Of a stretch of DNA of 23,600 nucleotides, positions 4,391-11,627 are shown one piece after another. The DNA is taken from IMG/VR virus record IMGVR_UViG_3300044970_001451, positions 1-23,600 of that record; one strand, 5' to 3'. The position numbers and the translations under genes were made by a program. The notes under the pieces were generated by a model that was given only the letters and a program-made list of their open reading frames with translations, was not told where the DNA came from and did no database searches. Source of the stretch: a virus. Position 1 is the first letter of the stretch. Every line of letters starts with the position of its first letter.

Positions 4391-4969
4391 ATGCTCTACC
4401 ATCCCACTGAGCTAGTGAAGAGCCAGGACGTGATTGTCCGCGTGGGCTCTATCGGTGGCATCGCACGCCCTGTAATTACGCAGAGCGGCGCCACCTTTAC
4501 TGTTAGCGGCGCTCCTACTCTCTACACTCTGCAAGCAGCCACCACGGCTTCTGTTGCCTTCAATGATGGCAACACTGAGTTCTATCTGCTTGGCGGCGGC
4601 GGCTTCTCTGATAGCGTAATTGTTACCAGCCAAGCCACTACTTCCATCACTGCCTACTTCCAGAAGGATGTTGATGGTACCACCTTCATCCCCAACAGCT
4701 TTGACGAAGCTTTCCAAGTGATTGCCACTGGCCGTTACGACAAGAACGCTGAAGTGTATGTTGAGATTAACAAGCAGCTTGGCTCTTCTGGCACCACGTT
4801 CTACTATGACCGAGTGGCTTACACTGGTCGTGTGATGAACTACAACGAAAGCTATCCTGCTGATAACCTCGTTGAAGTGACGTTTGATTTGATTAGCCGT
4901 GGCCGCATTGGCATTCACCAGAATGCTTCTGAGACTGGCAGCATCATCCCCACTGCTCCTAATTCCTGA
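4391..4969 (+). CDS. probable major tail (tube) protein
   Basis: A 192-residue, beta-rich protein with many Thr, Ser, Gly and Val residues. The C-terminal segment (VYVEINKQLG, then YDRVAYTGRVMNYNESYPAD and VEVTFDLISRGRI) resembles the tube-forming beta sheet of siphovirus tail proteins, ending in a short flexible tail. High-copy status is suggested by a strong SD and by a strong terminator directly downstream, an arrangement that isolates the abundant tube product from low-copy genes behind it. It lies before two completion protein candidates, a slightly different order from lambda, where the tube gene follows them. Two further tube-like genes occur at 16679 and 17160, so which one builds the main tube needs protein data. 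Confidence 0.55.
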   Translation: MLYHPTELVKSQDVIVRVGSIGGIARPVITQSGATFTVSGAPTLYTLQAATTASVAFNDGNTEFYLLGGGGFSDSVIVTSQATTSITAYFQKDVDGTTFIPNSFDEAFQVIATGRYDKNAEVYVEINKQLGSSGTTFYYDRVAYTGRVMNYNESYPADNLVEVTFDLISRGRIGIHQNASETGSIIPTAPNS

Positions 4970-5879: not shown

Positions 5880-6139
5880 AAATCGACTATCTGTCAAGTG
5901 GGGATGGCACAGTGCATGCCATCAATTGTTTCGTAGATGGCTCTGCGTTGGAAGTGGGTATTTTGTGCCTTATTTCTTGCAGAGAAAGCACCATTAGAAT
6001 AAGCAACGACAATCATTCAATGCTGGTTGAAGTGCCCAAAGAGTTTCGTTCTTCCCATGAGCGAGTGAAGGTGTTCAACGCATTGCTTAACATTCTCGAT
6101 CATGAGCAAATACAGCTTCCTTGTCCAGACCAAAACTGA
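5876..6139 (+). CDS. small hypothetical protein
   Basis: An 87-residue frame starting at an ATGA overlap with the previous gene and running 38 bases into the chaperone gene. It reads as a plausible soluble protein (MKIDYLSSGDGTVHAINCFV, beta-type, then a helix SSHERVKVFNALLNILDHEQ) with three Cys residues. I do not recognise it. Translational coupling on the left and the absence of another frame between 5879 and 6102 support it being real; the long overlap on the right argues for some caution. Confidence 0.55.
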   Translation: MKIDYLSSGDGTVHAINCFVDGSALEVGILCLISCRESTIRISNDNHSMLVEVPKEFRSSHERVKVFNALLNILDHEQIQLPCPDQN

Positions 6140-6635
6140 AGGCTATTTTGAACTATTGCCTGAAATTCGTCTAAAGAAGTATGGCAGTTGGCTGGTTGCT
6201 GAATCCATTGAGCAGGAAGAGATTAGCAAGCTGCAAAGCCAAGCCACTATTCGCGCCGTTCAGCTTGCTAAGCGCATCGCTGCATCCCGTGAGATCCCCT
6301 TGGACGAGGCTTTTACGCTTCTGCAGGGTGGTGGATCCATTTCTGAGACGGAACTCCTGTCTGAGTTCACGGAAGAAACTCTCAGCATGATTAGCAGTGG
6401 CTCGTCCGTCGAGGCTACGAATGCCCGCATGGTCACCGCCTTCATTCGTTCCCGTGGTCAGGGCATGATTGATGGTGAGTGGCAAGACCTGCCTGACTGG
6501 GAAATCGAAGACACCAAAACACTTCCTCGTAAGGCCATCGCAAAAGTGGTGGAATTTATTGCCGAAGAGCAAAATGCTGAGACGCAGGAGGCCGTAGAAG
6601 CAAAAAAAGCGACGAAGAGGAATTCTCCTCAGTAG
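6102..6635 (+). CDS. tail assembly chaperone, short form (lambda gpG-like)
   Basis: A 177-residue acidic, mainly helical protein directly upstream of a second frame and the tape measure gene, the position of lambda gpG. Such proteins coat the tape measure during tail assembly and leave before the virion is complete. Beginning: MSKYSFLVQTKTEGYFEL; middle rich in Leu/Ile heptad-like helices; end (EAVEAKKATKRNSPQ) encoded across an A7 run, where a share of ribosomes is expected to shift into the -1 frame. ATG 6102 has no clear SD and lies inside the previous gene, so translation is probably coupled. No database check was possible; frameshift architecture and location carry the call. Confidence 0.65.
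   Translation: MSKYSFLVQTKTEGYFELLPEIRLKKYGSWLVAESIEQEEISKLQSQATIRAVQLAKRIAASREIPLDEAFTLLQGGGSISETELLSEFTEETLSMISSGSSVEATNARMVTAFIRSRGQGMIDGEWQDLPDWEIEDTKTLPRKAIAKVVEFIAEEQNAETQEAVEAKKATKRNSPQ
6586..6630 (+). promoter_or_regulatory. programmed -1 ribosomal frameshift signal (SD stimulator, A7 slippery site, hairpin)
   Basis: Three parts in order. AGGAGG at 6586-6591 is an SD-like sequence not used for initiation, ending 10 bases before the slippery site, as in E. coli dnaX. The heptamer A AAA AAA at 6602-6608 is in the right phase, the zero-frame codons being GCA AAA AAA GCG. A small hairpin GAGGA-ATTC-TCCTC lies at 6617-6630, eight bases after the heptamer. The zero-frame stop TAG (6633-6635) follows the hairpin. 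A -1 shift enters a frame that stays open to 7075. Confidence 0.85.
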
Positions 6636-7075
6636 CAGAAAAGCTTGAAGCACGAGCCAGGCAACAACTTAAAAGCTTGACAGATTGGAACGAAATTTAC
6701 TTTCGTCTTTCCGCTTCAGACCTTAGCGATAGGCGATGGCATGCAGATCAATTTGGTCTGCAGTCATTGTCTGATGTGAAGCGTGCGCTTAAATATCTTG
6801 ATCGCCACGACATTGCAAAATATAATGTTGGAAGCGTTGCCGTGGCAAAGCTTGGCGCTATGGCAGCAGGCATGATGGCAGGCAAGAAGAGCAAAATTAA
6901 GCCTGAAGATTTCCTGCCGTTTGATACAAAACAGATTAAGAAAGACGATGGCGTAACTGACGCAAGCTTGACGGTACTTCAGCGCTTAATGAAAACCAGA
7001 AAAATGGACGGACGTGTTATTGCATTGCTTGCTGATGAGCTAAAAAGTTTTAGTGGGCGGAGTCAAGAGCAATGA
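6608..7075 (+). CDS. -1 frame extension of the tail assembly chaperone (lambda T-like, made as a GT fusion)
   Basis: After slippage, reading resumes AGC GAC GAA (S-D-E) at 6608 and continues to TGA 7073-7075. Joined to the upstream part, this gives a fusion of about 324 residues starting at 6102. The extension has no ATG near its beginning and no SD; the first alternative start is a TTG at 6677 with nothing in front. Its sequence (SLTDWNEIYFRLSASDLSD, then RRWHADQFGLQSL) and the KPEDFLPFD phrase near residue 75 of the 6677-based reading resemble T domains of siphovirus chaperones, which recruit tail tube subunits. Coordinates cover only the shifted part. Confidence 0.75.
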   Translation, partial: SDEEEFSSVAEKLEARARQQLKSLTDWNEIYFRLSASDLSDRRWHADQFGLQSLSDVKRALKYLDRHDIAKYNVGSVAVAKLGAMAAGMMAGKKSKIKPEDFLPFDTKQIKKDDGVTDASLTVLQRLMKTRKMDGRVIALLADELKSFSGRSQEQ

Positions 7076-7109: not shown

Positions 7110-10100
7110 ATGGCAGCTCAAGACGCCGAACTAAAACTTAAGGTAAGTCTTGACCTGGGATTTTTTAGGCAGCAATTAGCAGGACTTGGGCAGGCAGCGG
7201 CTGGCTATAGCATGCCGGTGCAGGTGAAGTTTGACCGCCGCTCTGTTCAGAATGAACTGAATGCTCTTGGTGCAAATATCCAGCGTAGAAATTACACGCT
7301 CAATGTAAATACTAATTTAAAGGCAGAAATTGCAAATGCCAAAACTCTTGCAAAGGAACTAGAAAATCTCGCCAAAGTGCGAGCCAGCGCACAAGGAGGC
7401 ATTCGTCAGCAAATGGGCATGGGGGCATTACTTCCCGGTCCCCAATCTGGCGGAGTGGGATCCAAGGAAGTTGGCAAGTTGTATAAGGCAGCGGCTAAGG
7501 CTGGATTGCTTGAGTTTGACAAAGAGGTGGCTAGGGCAAAAGCTTCTATGGTTGCCGCGCTTGAAAGCGTTGGACGTGATTCAATGGAGGGACTGCTAAA
7601 TGGTCTTTCAAGCGAAAACGAAAAATTAAAAGCTGCTGCTTCTCACATTGGTGAAAGTTTAATCAAGACCATCAAGGGAGTGTTGGGCATTGCATCTCCA
7701 TCGAGAGAATTCAAGAAAATAGGTGAAGATGCGGGCAAAGGTTTCGAGCTTGGCCTACTGAAAGCAATGGAACTTGCAGAAAAGTCTGCCACTAGTCAAA
7801 TGCGACGGATGTTAGATCGTCTCGCTCGCATGGCGCTCATGATGGGCGGGATGAGTACAGCAGAAATCGGCAGGCAAATTGGACAAGCACGAGCATTGCC
7901 TGGTGTTAATTTTCCTGCCACAGTTCCACCTCGTCAGCGCATTTCCATTGGCCCTTCTGATACCGGCAGGGCACTACCTCCTGGTGTAACCCCCGGGGCA
8001 TTGCCTGGCACTGCATTTGGCGCTCAACGCTATCTTCCTTCTGCGCTGGGAGAGGAAATGAAGCGAGTGCTTCGTGAAGCAGCAAACACTTTCCTTGACA
8101 CCATTCGCGCTGGCATCAGACAAGTAAATGTACGAGATCTTGGAACTACTGTTTCTCGCCAGTCGCTGCTAGGGCCCGGACGCATGGCTGGAATGCTTCC
8201 AGCCGCGGTAGGCAGAGAGCCAAGTAGATATGCCATAGGGGGAGAGTCGCGAGAGCAGATGATGGCGCGTCGCACTGCAGAAGCTTATGCTCGTTCTGCG
8301 TTGCGTGGCGAATCCGTCATGGGGAGAGGCGGGGCATTGTCTGTCATTCCTAAAACAATGGGCTTGGGACAGCAATCATTCATGCGTGCGCCAAGTATTC
8401 CTACTGCGACGGGAGGAGGCGCAGGTGGTGGATCAGTGCCTCCTGGTGGGAGAGGAGGTGCTGGTGGAATGGGCGGTTTTGCTCGTGCGATGGGAGGACT
8501 CAATCTTCCAGGGGCTGGCGTCATCCGAGAGCTTGGCAGCGAATTTGCCTTTGCTACGAAACAAGTGTTGCTATTTGGGCAAGCATATAAACTGCTTGCA
8601 TTCATCCAAAGCTTTCCGGCACAAGTGGGAGAGGCCGTAAGTCAACTTCAGAATTTCCGCAATACCCTTGGTGCCATCTCACCCACTGCCAATGAAGCCG
8701 CAGCATCTAATCAGCTTATTCTTGATCTAGTTGAGAAATACAACGTACCTTTGCAATCAGCTAGGGACGGATTCACGAAGCTTTACGCTTCCATGGCTCC
8801 CGCTGGATTTAGCGGTGACGAAGTGAGGGATCTATTCACGGGCATTACGCAAGCTGCCGCCACGTTTGGCATGAGTGCAGACAAAGTGGATCGCGTGAAC
8901 TACGCCTTCGCTCAGATGGCCAGCAAGGGGCAGGTCATGAGCGAAGAGCTTAAGGGACAACTAGGCGACGTGCTGCCTGGTGCAATGGCATTGTTTGCGG
9001 AAGCCGCTGGATTTAAAGGTCCAAAAGCTATTCAAGATTTCTCTGTCGCGTTGGAAGATGGCGCCTATAAAGGAGAAGCAATGGTTGCATTGCTGAAGAA
9101 TGTTGGCGTGATTATGAAGCAAGAGTTTGGCCCTGGTGCCGAAGGTGCTGCTCGGACATTTCAAGGCGTAATTAATCGCATGCAAAACTCAATGACTCTT
9201 TTATACGAGAGCTTTGAGCCTGTTGCAGTGAACTTCTTGAATGGAGTGGTGGTGCCTTTAACCGCTGGCATTAAGCAGATTTCTGATGGATTTAACGCTT
9301 TCTTTGCGAGTACGGCAGCGCAAACAAGCGGAGGTTTCGCCATTGCGCAAGAGCTGGAACGCTTGCGTCCTGCTTTTGATGGAATTGGCCAGAACGTGTC
9401 TGCACTAGTATCACAGCTTGGACAATTTGCTCGCATTGGCTTGGAGGTGGGCAAGGTATTGCTGCAAATTGCAGGAAATCCTTTTGTGGGCTATCTGGCG
9501 CGAGTGTATATCAATATTCTCGCACTGACCACTGCCATTCAAATATTAAATCTGCGGGCATTGATCCCGATGATCGCAAATTTTGCGCGTTCTACTTATG
9601 CGCTTATCACTTTTACTGTTCAGTGCATTCGGGCCGGGCAAGCGGTTCAAGTTACTGGTTTGATGCTTAGAACTTTTTTTGCCACCACTGGGGTGGGGCT
9701 TGTAATCGTTGGCATTGGTTTGCTTACTGAAAGATTCATGAGCATGAATCAAGCGCTGGCCGACACTCAAGCTAAGGCTTTGGGGGCTGCCCAAGCAATA
9801 CGAAGCATGTCTCAAACAGAGGCACGAGTAGAAGGGCAGAGAATCGCTAGGAATACGAGAGATTTACAGAATCTTCAAAAATCAAAAGAAAGTTATAAAC
9901 TTGGCGGCGAAGAGGTGGTTCCAGTGCAGGGCGATATGGCGAAAAGATTGCAGGAAGGAGGAGTTGGCGTTAGGCGTGATTTACTTGGACGAACATTCAT
10001 TCCTAAGACAAGTGTGACTGCTGAGATTTTGCGCCAACAGGGCTTGCAATCAGAAGCAGAAACCCGCCAAAGGCAAATTCAATTTGAAGAAAAGCAGTCA

Positions 10101-11627
10101 CAGCAGCCAGTGGCGATTGCCCCCATCCCGCCAAGCGAAGGCGATGGAAAGAAGAAAAAAGGAAAAGAGCTTGACACCTATGATCGCAGTCAGCTTGGAT
10201 TTATTCAGCAACAGTTCAGTATTGAAAAGCAGCGTCTTGACAAACGATTACAGGGACAGCTTATATCTCAGACCGAGTACGATATATCCTTGGCCGAACT
10301 CAAACTTGAAACCGCCAAACTTGAGACAGCAGAGGAATATCGACTTGCTGTAGAAAAAACGAACAAAGACAATTTATCTGCAGTAGACAAAGCCTTAAAG
10401 CTCAAGGATATAGAGGCCGCACGAGTCAATGCTTTGACCATTGCAGAAGAAGATCGCAATATTGCCGTTGGCGCTGCCAGGCTAAAAATTACCGAACCCA
10501 TCCTTGAAGAAATTGACAAGGAGGTGATGGCAATAGAACGCCAGACCCTGCAATTGGAAGCCCTGAAGGCAGGCCGCTTAGAACTTTCTGCAGCACAAGA
10601 AGCTGAACTAGCTGTTAAGGAGCGTTACGCTCAGCTTTCCGCCGACGAAAAAGAACTGGCAAAAGGTGAAATTGATCTTTTAAGGCAGCAAATTCAATTG
10701 CGGATTGAAAATGCAGCAGCTTTAGAAAAAGAGCAAGGGCTGACAGAAGCTCGCGCTGGACTGCGTGGCATTGGTGGAGGGCTGAGGTCTGGATTCACTG
10801 GTAGCGCTGCTGGCGTGTTTGAAAGAGCAATGGGGCAATATGGCGACTCCGATTATGCAACGAAGCTGGCAAATATTGAGACGGTTGCAATGCAGCTCAG
10901 GAGCGTATTTGAAGGACTGCAAGGTGCCATCAATGGCGTAAGCAGTGCATTTGCCAATGTGCTTACAGAAGGTATTGCCAACATGATTTCTGGCACTGCT
11001 ACTGCCAAGGAAGTATTTGCCAGCTTCCTGCAAAGCGTTGGGCAAGCATTGTCTCAGGCCGCTTCTCAAATGATTGCCACTTACATTGCTATTGGCATTG
11101 CGAAGTTGTTTGCAGGACTGGGAGGAGGAGGGGGTGGTGGTGGTGGCAGTGGTGGAGTGAATGCCGTGCCAGGGGCTCCCGCCATTGATCCTCTTCCTCA
11201 GTTGCCAGGCATGCTAAAAGCTGCCAATGGCGCTGTCTGGGAAGGAGGCTTTGCTCCATTCCAAGCATTCGCCAAGGGAGGCGTTGTCAGCGGCCCCACG
11301 CTTGGCCTTGTAGGGGAAGGCAAGTACAACGAAGCCATTGTTCCTCTTCCTGATGGCAAGAGCATTCCCGTGCAGCTTGGTGGGCGCTCTGCTCGTGACC
11401 TCATGGGAGGCGGTGCTCCAGGCATGCCTCAAGCCCCCTCTCTCAATATGAAGTTTGAAACTACTAAGATCAATGGCGTAGAATACGTTAGCAGGGAGCA
11501 ATTGGAAGTGGCAATGGCAGAAACACGCCGTGCCTCTATTTCTGGTGGTGCTCGTCAAGGCATGTCAATGACCCTGGATAGAATCAAGCAAAGCCCCTCC
11601 ACTCGCTCTAGCATTGGTATCCGCTAA
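7110..11627 (+). CDS. tape measure protein
   Basis: At 1505 residues this is the longest gene of the tail block and directly follows the chaperones. Residues 1-500 are helical and charged with a Gly/Pro-rich linker near 435-455. About 505-700 resembles the phage tape measure N-terminal domain (FRNTLGAISP, YNVPLQSARDGFTKLYASMA, DVLPGAMALFAEAAG). Hydrophobic stretches between about 785 and 880 (including TTGVGLVIVGIGLL) may cross the host membrane during DNA entry. A coiled coil spans about 1025-1205, then a poly-Gly stretch, and a C-terminal motif FAKGGVVSGPTLGLVGEG near 1385-1402, frequent at the end of tape measures. By the usual 0.15 nm per residue the tail would be about 225 nm; this is an estimate. 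The stop overlaps the next start by one base (TAATG). Confidence 0.92.
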   Translation: MAAQDAELKLKVSLDLGFFRQQLAGLGQAAAGYSMPVQVKFDRRSVQNELNALGANIQRRNYTLNVNTNLKAEIANAKTLAKELENLAKVRASAQGGIRQQMGMGALLPGPQSGGVGSKEVGKLYKAAAKAGLLEFDKEVARAKASMVAALESVGRDSMEGLLNGLSSENEKLKAAASHIGESLIKTIKGVLGIASPSREFKKIGEDAGKGFELGLLKAMELAEKSATSQMRRMLDRLARMALMMGGMSTAEIGRQIGQARALPGVNFPATVPPRQRISIGPSDTGRALPPGVTPGALPGTAFGAQRYLPSALGEEMKRVLREAANTFLDTIRAGIRQVNVRDLGTTVSRQSLLGPGRMAGMLPAAVGREPSRYAIGGESREQMMARRTAEAYARSALRGESVMGRGGALSVIPKTMGLGQQSFMRAPSIPTATGGGAGGGSVPPGGRGGAGGMGGFARAMGGLNLPGAGVIRELGSEFAFATKQVLLFGQAYKLLAFIQSFPAQVGEAVSQLQNFRNTLGAISPTANEAAASNQLILDLVEKYNVPLQSARDGFTKLYASMAPAGFSGDEVRDLFTGITQAAATFGMSADKVDRVNYAFAQMASKGQVMSEELKGQLGDVLPGAMALFAEAAGFKGPKAIQDFSVALEDGAYKGEAMVALLKNVGVIMKQEFGPGAEGAARTFQGVINRMQNSMTLLYESFEPVAVNFLNGVVVPLTAGIKQISDGFNAFFASTAAQTSGGFAIAQELERLRPAFDGIGQNVSALVSQLGQFARIGLEVGKVLLQIAGNPFVGYLARVYINILALTTAIQILNLRALIPMIANFARSTYALITFTVQCIRAGQAVQVTGLMLRTFFATTGVGLVIVGIGLLTERFMSMNQALADTQAKALGAAQAIRSMSQTEARVEGQRIARNTRDLQNLQKSKESYKLGGEEVVPVQGDMAKRLQEGGVGVRRDLLGRTFIPKTSVTAEILRQQGLQSEAETRQRQIQFEEKQSQQPVAIAPIPPSEGDGKKKKGKELDTYDRSQLGFIQQQFSIEKQRLDKRLQGQLISQTEYDISLAELKLETAKLETAEEYRLAVEKTNKDNLSAVDKALKLKDIEAARVNALTIAEEDRNIAVGAARLKITEPILEEIDKEVMAIERQTLQLEALKAGRLELSAAQEAELAVKERYAQLSADEKELAKGEIDLLRQQIQLRIENAAALEKEQGLTEARAGLRGIGGGLRSGFTGSAAGVFERAMGQYGDSDYATKLANIETVAMQLRSVFEGLQGAINGVSSAFANVLTEGIANMISGTATAKEVFASFLQSVGQALSQAASQMIATYIAIGIAKLFAGLGGGGGGGGGSGGVNAVPGAPAIDPLPQLPGMLKAANGAVWEGGFAPFQAFAKGGVVSGPTLGLVGEGKYNEAIVPLPDGKSIPVQLGGRSARDLMGGGAPGMPQAPSLNMKFETTKINGVEYVSREQLEVAMAETRRASISGGARQGMSMTLDRIKQSPSTRSSIGIR

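Follow-up and report, generated by a model that had tools for sequence, protein, structure and literature searches.

The DNA analyzed here, hereafter the window, comprises 23,600 nt of a 23.6-kb viral contig and, judged from its sequence, is a fragment of a siphovirus resembling Synechococcus phage S-CBS4. This phage is the nearest isolate, with 86.5% identity in the capsid protein, and the likeness suggests an aquatic cyanobacterium, Synechococcus, as the host. Directly upstream of a tape measure gene of 1505 codons, the window carries two overlapping open reading frames in a -1 relation, the second running up to that gene, which is the arrangement of lambda-type G and GT genes. The coordinates of these frames, of neighboring genes and of the elements at the junction are listed in Table 1.

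Table 1. Genes and sequence elements in the tail region of the window
Feature	Position	Strand	Observations
Possible major tail protein	4391..4969	+	Weak PHROG match, E 0.0094
Zero-frame ORF, putative G-like tail assembly chaperone	6102..6635	+	177 aa, ATG to TAG; ~61% identity to the S-CBS4 gp031/gp032 region
AGGAGG, internal Shine-Dalgarno (SD)-like stimulator	6586..6591	+	10 nt before heptamer; 0 synonymous changes vs 11.3 expected, codons 162-163
A_AAA_AAA slippery heptamer, X_XXY_YYZ phase	6602..6608	+	Canonical in-phase heptamer (A7, A6G or G3A4) at 132/133 distinct junctions
T-like domain, -1 frame	6608..7075	+	155 codons plus TGA, without own start; conserved as protein among relatives
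GAGGA-ATTC-TCCTC hairpin, possible weak 3' stimulator	6617..6630	+	5 pairs kept in 45/49 close-clade junctions, 7/81 others
Tape measure protein gene	7110..11627	+	PHROG tape measure E 1.3e-66, Pfam TMP_3 2.3e-21

The AGGAGG motif and the slippery heptamer are separated by the ten bases CCGTAGAAGC (6592-6601), and the zero-frame codons across the A run read GCA AAA AAA. Eight further bases (6609-6616) lead to the hairpin, which is made of GAGGA (6617-6621), the loop ATTC (6622-6625) and TCCTC (6626-6630), and the zero-frame stop TAG follows at 6633-6635. In the -1 frame no stop intervenes between the heptamer and a TGA at 7073-7075, and the predicted fusion has 169 + 155 = 324 residues. The first-pass annotation had described this order of elements, together with a short form of 177 residues and a fusion of about 324; the former was exact to the base, and reading of the frames gave 177 and 324 residues. 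Its statement that the second frame lacks an SD or ATG start of its own also agrees with the window, where no ATG preceded by an SD was found in the -1 frame and the earliest near-start codon is a TTG at 6677. A7 occurs once on the plus strand of the window and three times on both strands together, which is rarer than the 9.7 expected, and AGGAGG separated by 8 to 14 nt from A6 occurs once against 0.05 expected.

Position and architecture suggest that the two proteins are the tail assembly chaperones G and T. T is about 52% identical to its S-CBS4 counterpart, and 20 of 40 T members gave weak matches to Pfam Phage_tail_T and to phrog_337 'tail protein' (best E of 0.0046 and 0.0016, respectively), with the protein of the window below the Pfam cut-off. 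G had no useful match in Pfam or PHROG, hhalign of G and T to lambda G and T gave no match, and a PDB sequence search returned nothing useful. A PDB fold search with AlphaFold models of G and T, which were weak (mean pLDDT 59 and 65), likewise found no match. Since the profile, sequence and fold comparisons were weak or empty, the chaperone role rests on gene context.

Heptamer and reading frames among relatives

Relatives came from seven scans, six against viral contigs and the seventh against genomes. The several hundred loci obtained, many of them overlapping, were reduced to distinct junction sequences, numbering 123 in an early set and 133 in the final set. All 123 junctions of the early set had the -1 relation together with an in-phase heptamer. 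In the final set a -1 shift is required at 131 of the 133 junctions, and the heptamers were A_AAA_AAA (117), A_AAA_AAG (8), G_GGA_AAA (7) and A_AAA_AAC (1). Codons 167-168, which hold the heptamer, showed 0 synonymous changes against 15.2 expected in a tree-based count over a clade of 46 sequences. Selection for ribosomal slippage would be expected to produce this pattern, in which one canonical slippery type replaces another at a constant position and in X_XXY_YYZ phase. The -1 frameshift proposed in the first-pass annotation is thereby upheld, with an A-rich in-phase heptamer in all close relatives and G_GGA_AAA in one distant lineage.

A few loci stand apart. The sole non-canonical heptamer, A_AAA_AAC, lies near position 1365 of L459. 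L396 and L399 keep the slip site but differ by 1 nt in the G tail, which brings G and T into the same frame; the scripted heptamer match fell elsewhere in these two, and the junction sequence itself shows GGGAAAA and A7 in place. These in-frame junctions may be sequence errors or a real fused variant. The genome scan contributed one contig, L307 (NYTN01000090.1, from a Rhodobiaceae MAG), which probably comes from a phage and ended up in the MAG through binning; it encodes a T relative of 50% identity and has AGGAGG exactly 10 nt before A7 (2943-2965).

RNA polymerase can also slip on poly-A, in which case mRNAs minus one A or plus two would be translated in the standard manner, and the published runs are longer (>7 or ~9 As; PMC3711429, PMC5009743). 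Seven As are short for such transcriptional slippage, and it fits poorly with the six-A and G3A4 heptamers (AAAAAAG and GGGAAAA) found at the same place in relatives. Additionally, the X_XXY_YYZ phase is invariable and an SD has no relevance to RNA polymerase. Slippage during transcription is, in our judgment, highly improbable.

The public annotation of S-CBS4 favors yet another account, that of two separate genes with T initiated independently or by re-initiation. There the locus (L001, 6001-6971) is annotated as two separate CDSs for the hypothetical proteins gp032/gp033; because these are annotated separately, the frameshift is absent from the annotation. The annotated starts are a late one for G (6070) and an internal ATG for T (6750), and the latter lies well inside conserved T sequence. 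The first-pass annotation had pointed out that a second frame with its own SD-preceded start in related phages would speak against a shift; none was seen in the T frames examined, and 58 of 117 T frames were without ATG, GTG or TTG in their first 45 codons. With the heptamer retained everywhere, we give separate initiation of T almost no credence. The relatives say instead that in S-CBS4 both G and T begin earlier, and that T is joined to G by the frameshift. Sequence comparison establishes the junction, its direction, the heptamer and the missing T start.

Elements flanking the heptamer

By itself the SD is only mildly unusual, as the window contains 17 copies of AGGAGG and an SD equally strong appears in about 12% of synonymous resamplings of the Glu-rich tail (p ~0.12). 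The significance of the SD comes from the comparison of relatives, a single sequence giving a not-significant result. The frameshift could thus be real and AGGAGG an accident of the Glu/Gln-rich C-terminal tail, with A7 alone sufficing for a low-level shift, in the way that lambda shifts with no stimulator. Low-level shifts of this stimulator-free type are known in certain tailed phages (PMC5009743), and the SD drifts in position and strength among relatives and is absent in some lineages. Against an accident, codons 162-163 (CAG GAG) showed no synonymous changes across the 46-sequence clade, where 11.3 would be expected from their two-fold sites by a tree-based Fitch/Poisson test that ignores codon bias and recombination. 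Zero changes were shared by only about 2% of the other two-fold codons in this clade; codon 164 had 11 synonymous changes, and codons 165-166 showed free amino-acid change. GGAGG also survives amino-acid changes, as Q162 is replaced by R in L137 and by L in L089 and the motif is retained in both. Dual coding cannot account for this conservation, because the SD codons lie upstream of the dual-coded stretch.

The pairing energies of 32 representatives point the same way. Anti-SD pairing before the heptamer averaged -10.3 kcal/mol against -6.7 kcal/mol for the codon null, and the excess over this null was greatest at this place: the three strongest of 150 positions along the gene were the three overlapping ones nearest the heptamer. 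The stretch preceding the SD region paired more weakly than its null. An accidental SD is, on this evidence, unlikely. Purifying selection on the motif is established by the sequence comparison, and the synonymous-site conservation in the 46-sequence clade supports both the SD stimulator proposed in the first-pass annotation and a functional role for AGGAGG.

In this virus group an SD usually precedes the slip site, most often at 10 nt, and other lineages show distances of 7, 8, 13, 16 and 19 nt. The published spacing of -1 SD stimulators is 9-14 nt, without a competing SD just upstream (PMC5009743), and many relatives lie beyond this range (16, 19, 7, 8). No good SD before the heptamer was found in L262, L263 and L265. 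Because the spacing shifts and a few relatives are without an SD, the feature is lineage-conserved and mobile, not universal.

The hairpin downstream of the heptamer folds at -8.9 kcal/mol, with z -2.07 when a 32-nt piece is considered, and a larger downstream RNA structure in excess over shuffles was not found in 131 nt. Its five pairs are held at most close-clade junctions (Table 1) despite a variable loop, which speaks for a dnaX-like signal complete in all three parts, with the hairpin adding to the stimulation. A similar argument can be made from L163, L165 and L237, in which a strong 8-bp stem of other sequence is found at a similar place roughly 11 nt past the heptamer, with z of about -4 to -5. 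The arms of this stem differ yet match (GGCAACGC/GCGTTGCC, GGCGAGGC/GCCTCGCC), and in the S-CBS4-like lineage it may act as a 3' stimulator. Across 6609-6632, however, any single substitution would change the protein in at least one frame; dual coding alone suffices for the conservation of this stretch, which makes that of the hairpin uninformative. Furthermore, the hairpin is missing from most other relatives, and downstream folding over 95 distinct regions had a mean z of only -0.69. A working 5-bp hairpin is therefore doubtful, and the element at 6617-6630 is a possible weak 3' stimulator, the weakest of the three parts.

The signal had been described beforehand as complete and three-part, with a check for whether all parts are kept in relatives. 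The heptamer and the SD stand, the former kept and the latter kept by lineage. For the stem the description goes too far, as its conservation is that expected under dual coding alone and it is kept at few junctions outside the close clade.

The predicted frameshift in relation to known systems

Altogether, we are confident, from the sequences compared, that the tail chaperone locus of this S-CBS4-like cyanosiphovirus uses a programmed -1 frameshift, probably stimulated by an SD, that would yield G and a G-T fusion. The virus thus very probably makes its tail-building helper in two versions, the longer one when a ribosome slips back by one base. The majority of ribosomes would terminate at the TAG at 6633 and yield the 177-aa G protein, and a minority, shifted back by one base on A_AAA_AAA, would continue to 7075 and yield the 324-aa fusion. 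AGGAGG, 10 nt before the slip site, would pair with the tail of the 16S rRNA, put tension on the elongating ribosome and make slipping more frequent, as is the case for dnaX. If the lambda model applies, G would coat the tape measure protein, and recruitment of the tail tube subunit would fall to the T part. We infer the action of the SD by rRNA pairing, the efficiency of the shift and the chaperone role.

The likeness to lambda G/GT (also HK97 and N15) consists of a short form plus a fusion and a T frame without its own start. In contrast, the lambda heptamer is G_GGA_AAG where the window has A_AAA_AAA, the best SD at the lambda site reaches -2.5 kcal/mol against -10.3 kcal/mol at 10 nt upstream in the window, and lambda G or T have no demonstrable sequence homology to the proteins of the window. 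HK97, N15, phiC31 and Mu were compared solely on SD strength in the last 75 nt of the gene. No strong SD was found there in HK97 and N15, and phiC31 and Mu have SD-like stretches of -8.1 and -9.9 kcal/mol. Given these stretches, the control does not prove the SD unique to the S-CBS4-like family. A scan for XXXYYYZ heptamers at the HK97, N15, phiC31 and Mu junctions found none (N15 is annotated as GGAAAAG), which leaves lambda as the sole direct spacing control. By sequence, this is a real programmed frameshift of the lambda G/GT kind, to which is added an SD stimulator that is conserved by lineage and for which no equivalent was seen at the sites of lambda, HK97 and N15.

The dnaX signal shares with the window an A-run heptamer, an SD 10 nt upstream and a stem-loop downstream. 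Its stem has 11 bp and is proven to act (PMC5009743), whereas the hairpin of the window has 5 bp and is a candidate from sequence alone. As in dnaX-like signals, the window has an A_AAA_AAR heptamer and an SD within 9-14 nt that is conserved in the clade beyond its amino acids, and the dnaX heptamer A_AAA_AAG itself is present in some relatives. The dnaX shift shortens its product, in contrast to the tail chaperone shift, which lengthens it. Signals of the IS3 family, such as that of IS911, likewise combine an A-run heptamer with stimulators, and the IS911 signal carries an SD stimulator. The IS911-type shift yields a transposase fusion, whereas a tail chaperone fusion is predicted in the window. 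A branched RNA structure lies downstream in the IS3-family signal (PMC5009743).

Few programmed frameshifts are as common as those of tail chaperones. In certain tailed phages at least, these are described as stimulator-free (PMC5009743). The open-access text searched described no SD stimulator in a tail-chaperone frameshift and no frameshifting in a cyanophage tail gene, and the novelty of an SD stimulator at such a site is provisional. According to a paper on Prochlorococcus, these cyanobacteria probably initiate without reliance on SDs (PMC5607370). Strong SDs are also rare in the window, at 1-2 of 19 gene starts, and against this background an internal SD that is conserved stands out more. 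We tentatively suggest, with more doubt than conviction, that the G:GT ratio is set, across a widespread lineage of cyanophages, by pairing between the SD and the anti-SD of elongating ribosomes, in a virus with few SD-led starts of its own and picocyanobacterial hosts that probably do not depend on SDs to initiate. If true, this would be a natural case of the anti-SD being used for control of elongation and not of initiation. An SD that is conserved, moved and sometimes absent provides a natural series for how phages tune the G:GT ratio, and the same lineage lets one ask whether elongating ribosomes make use of their anti-SD in bacteria that seldom initiate with it.
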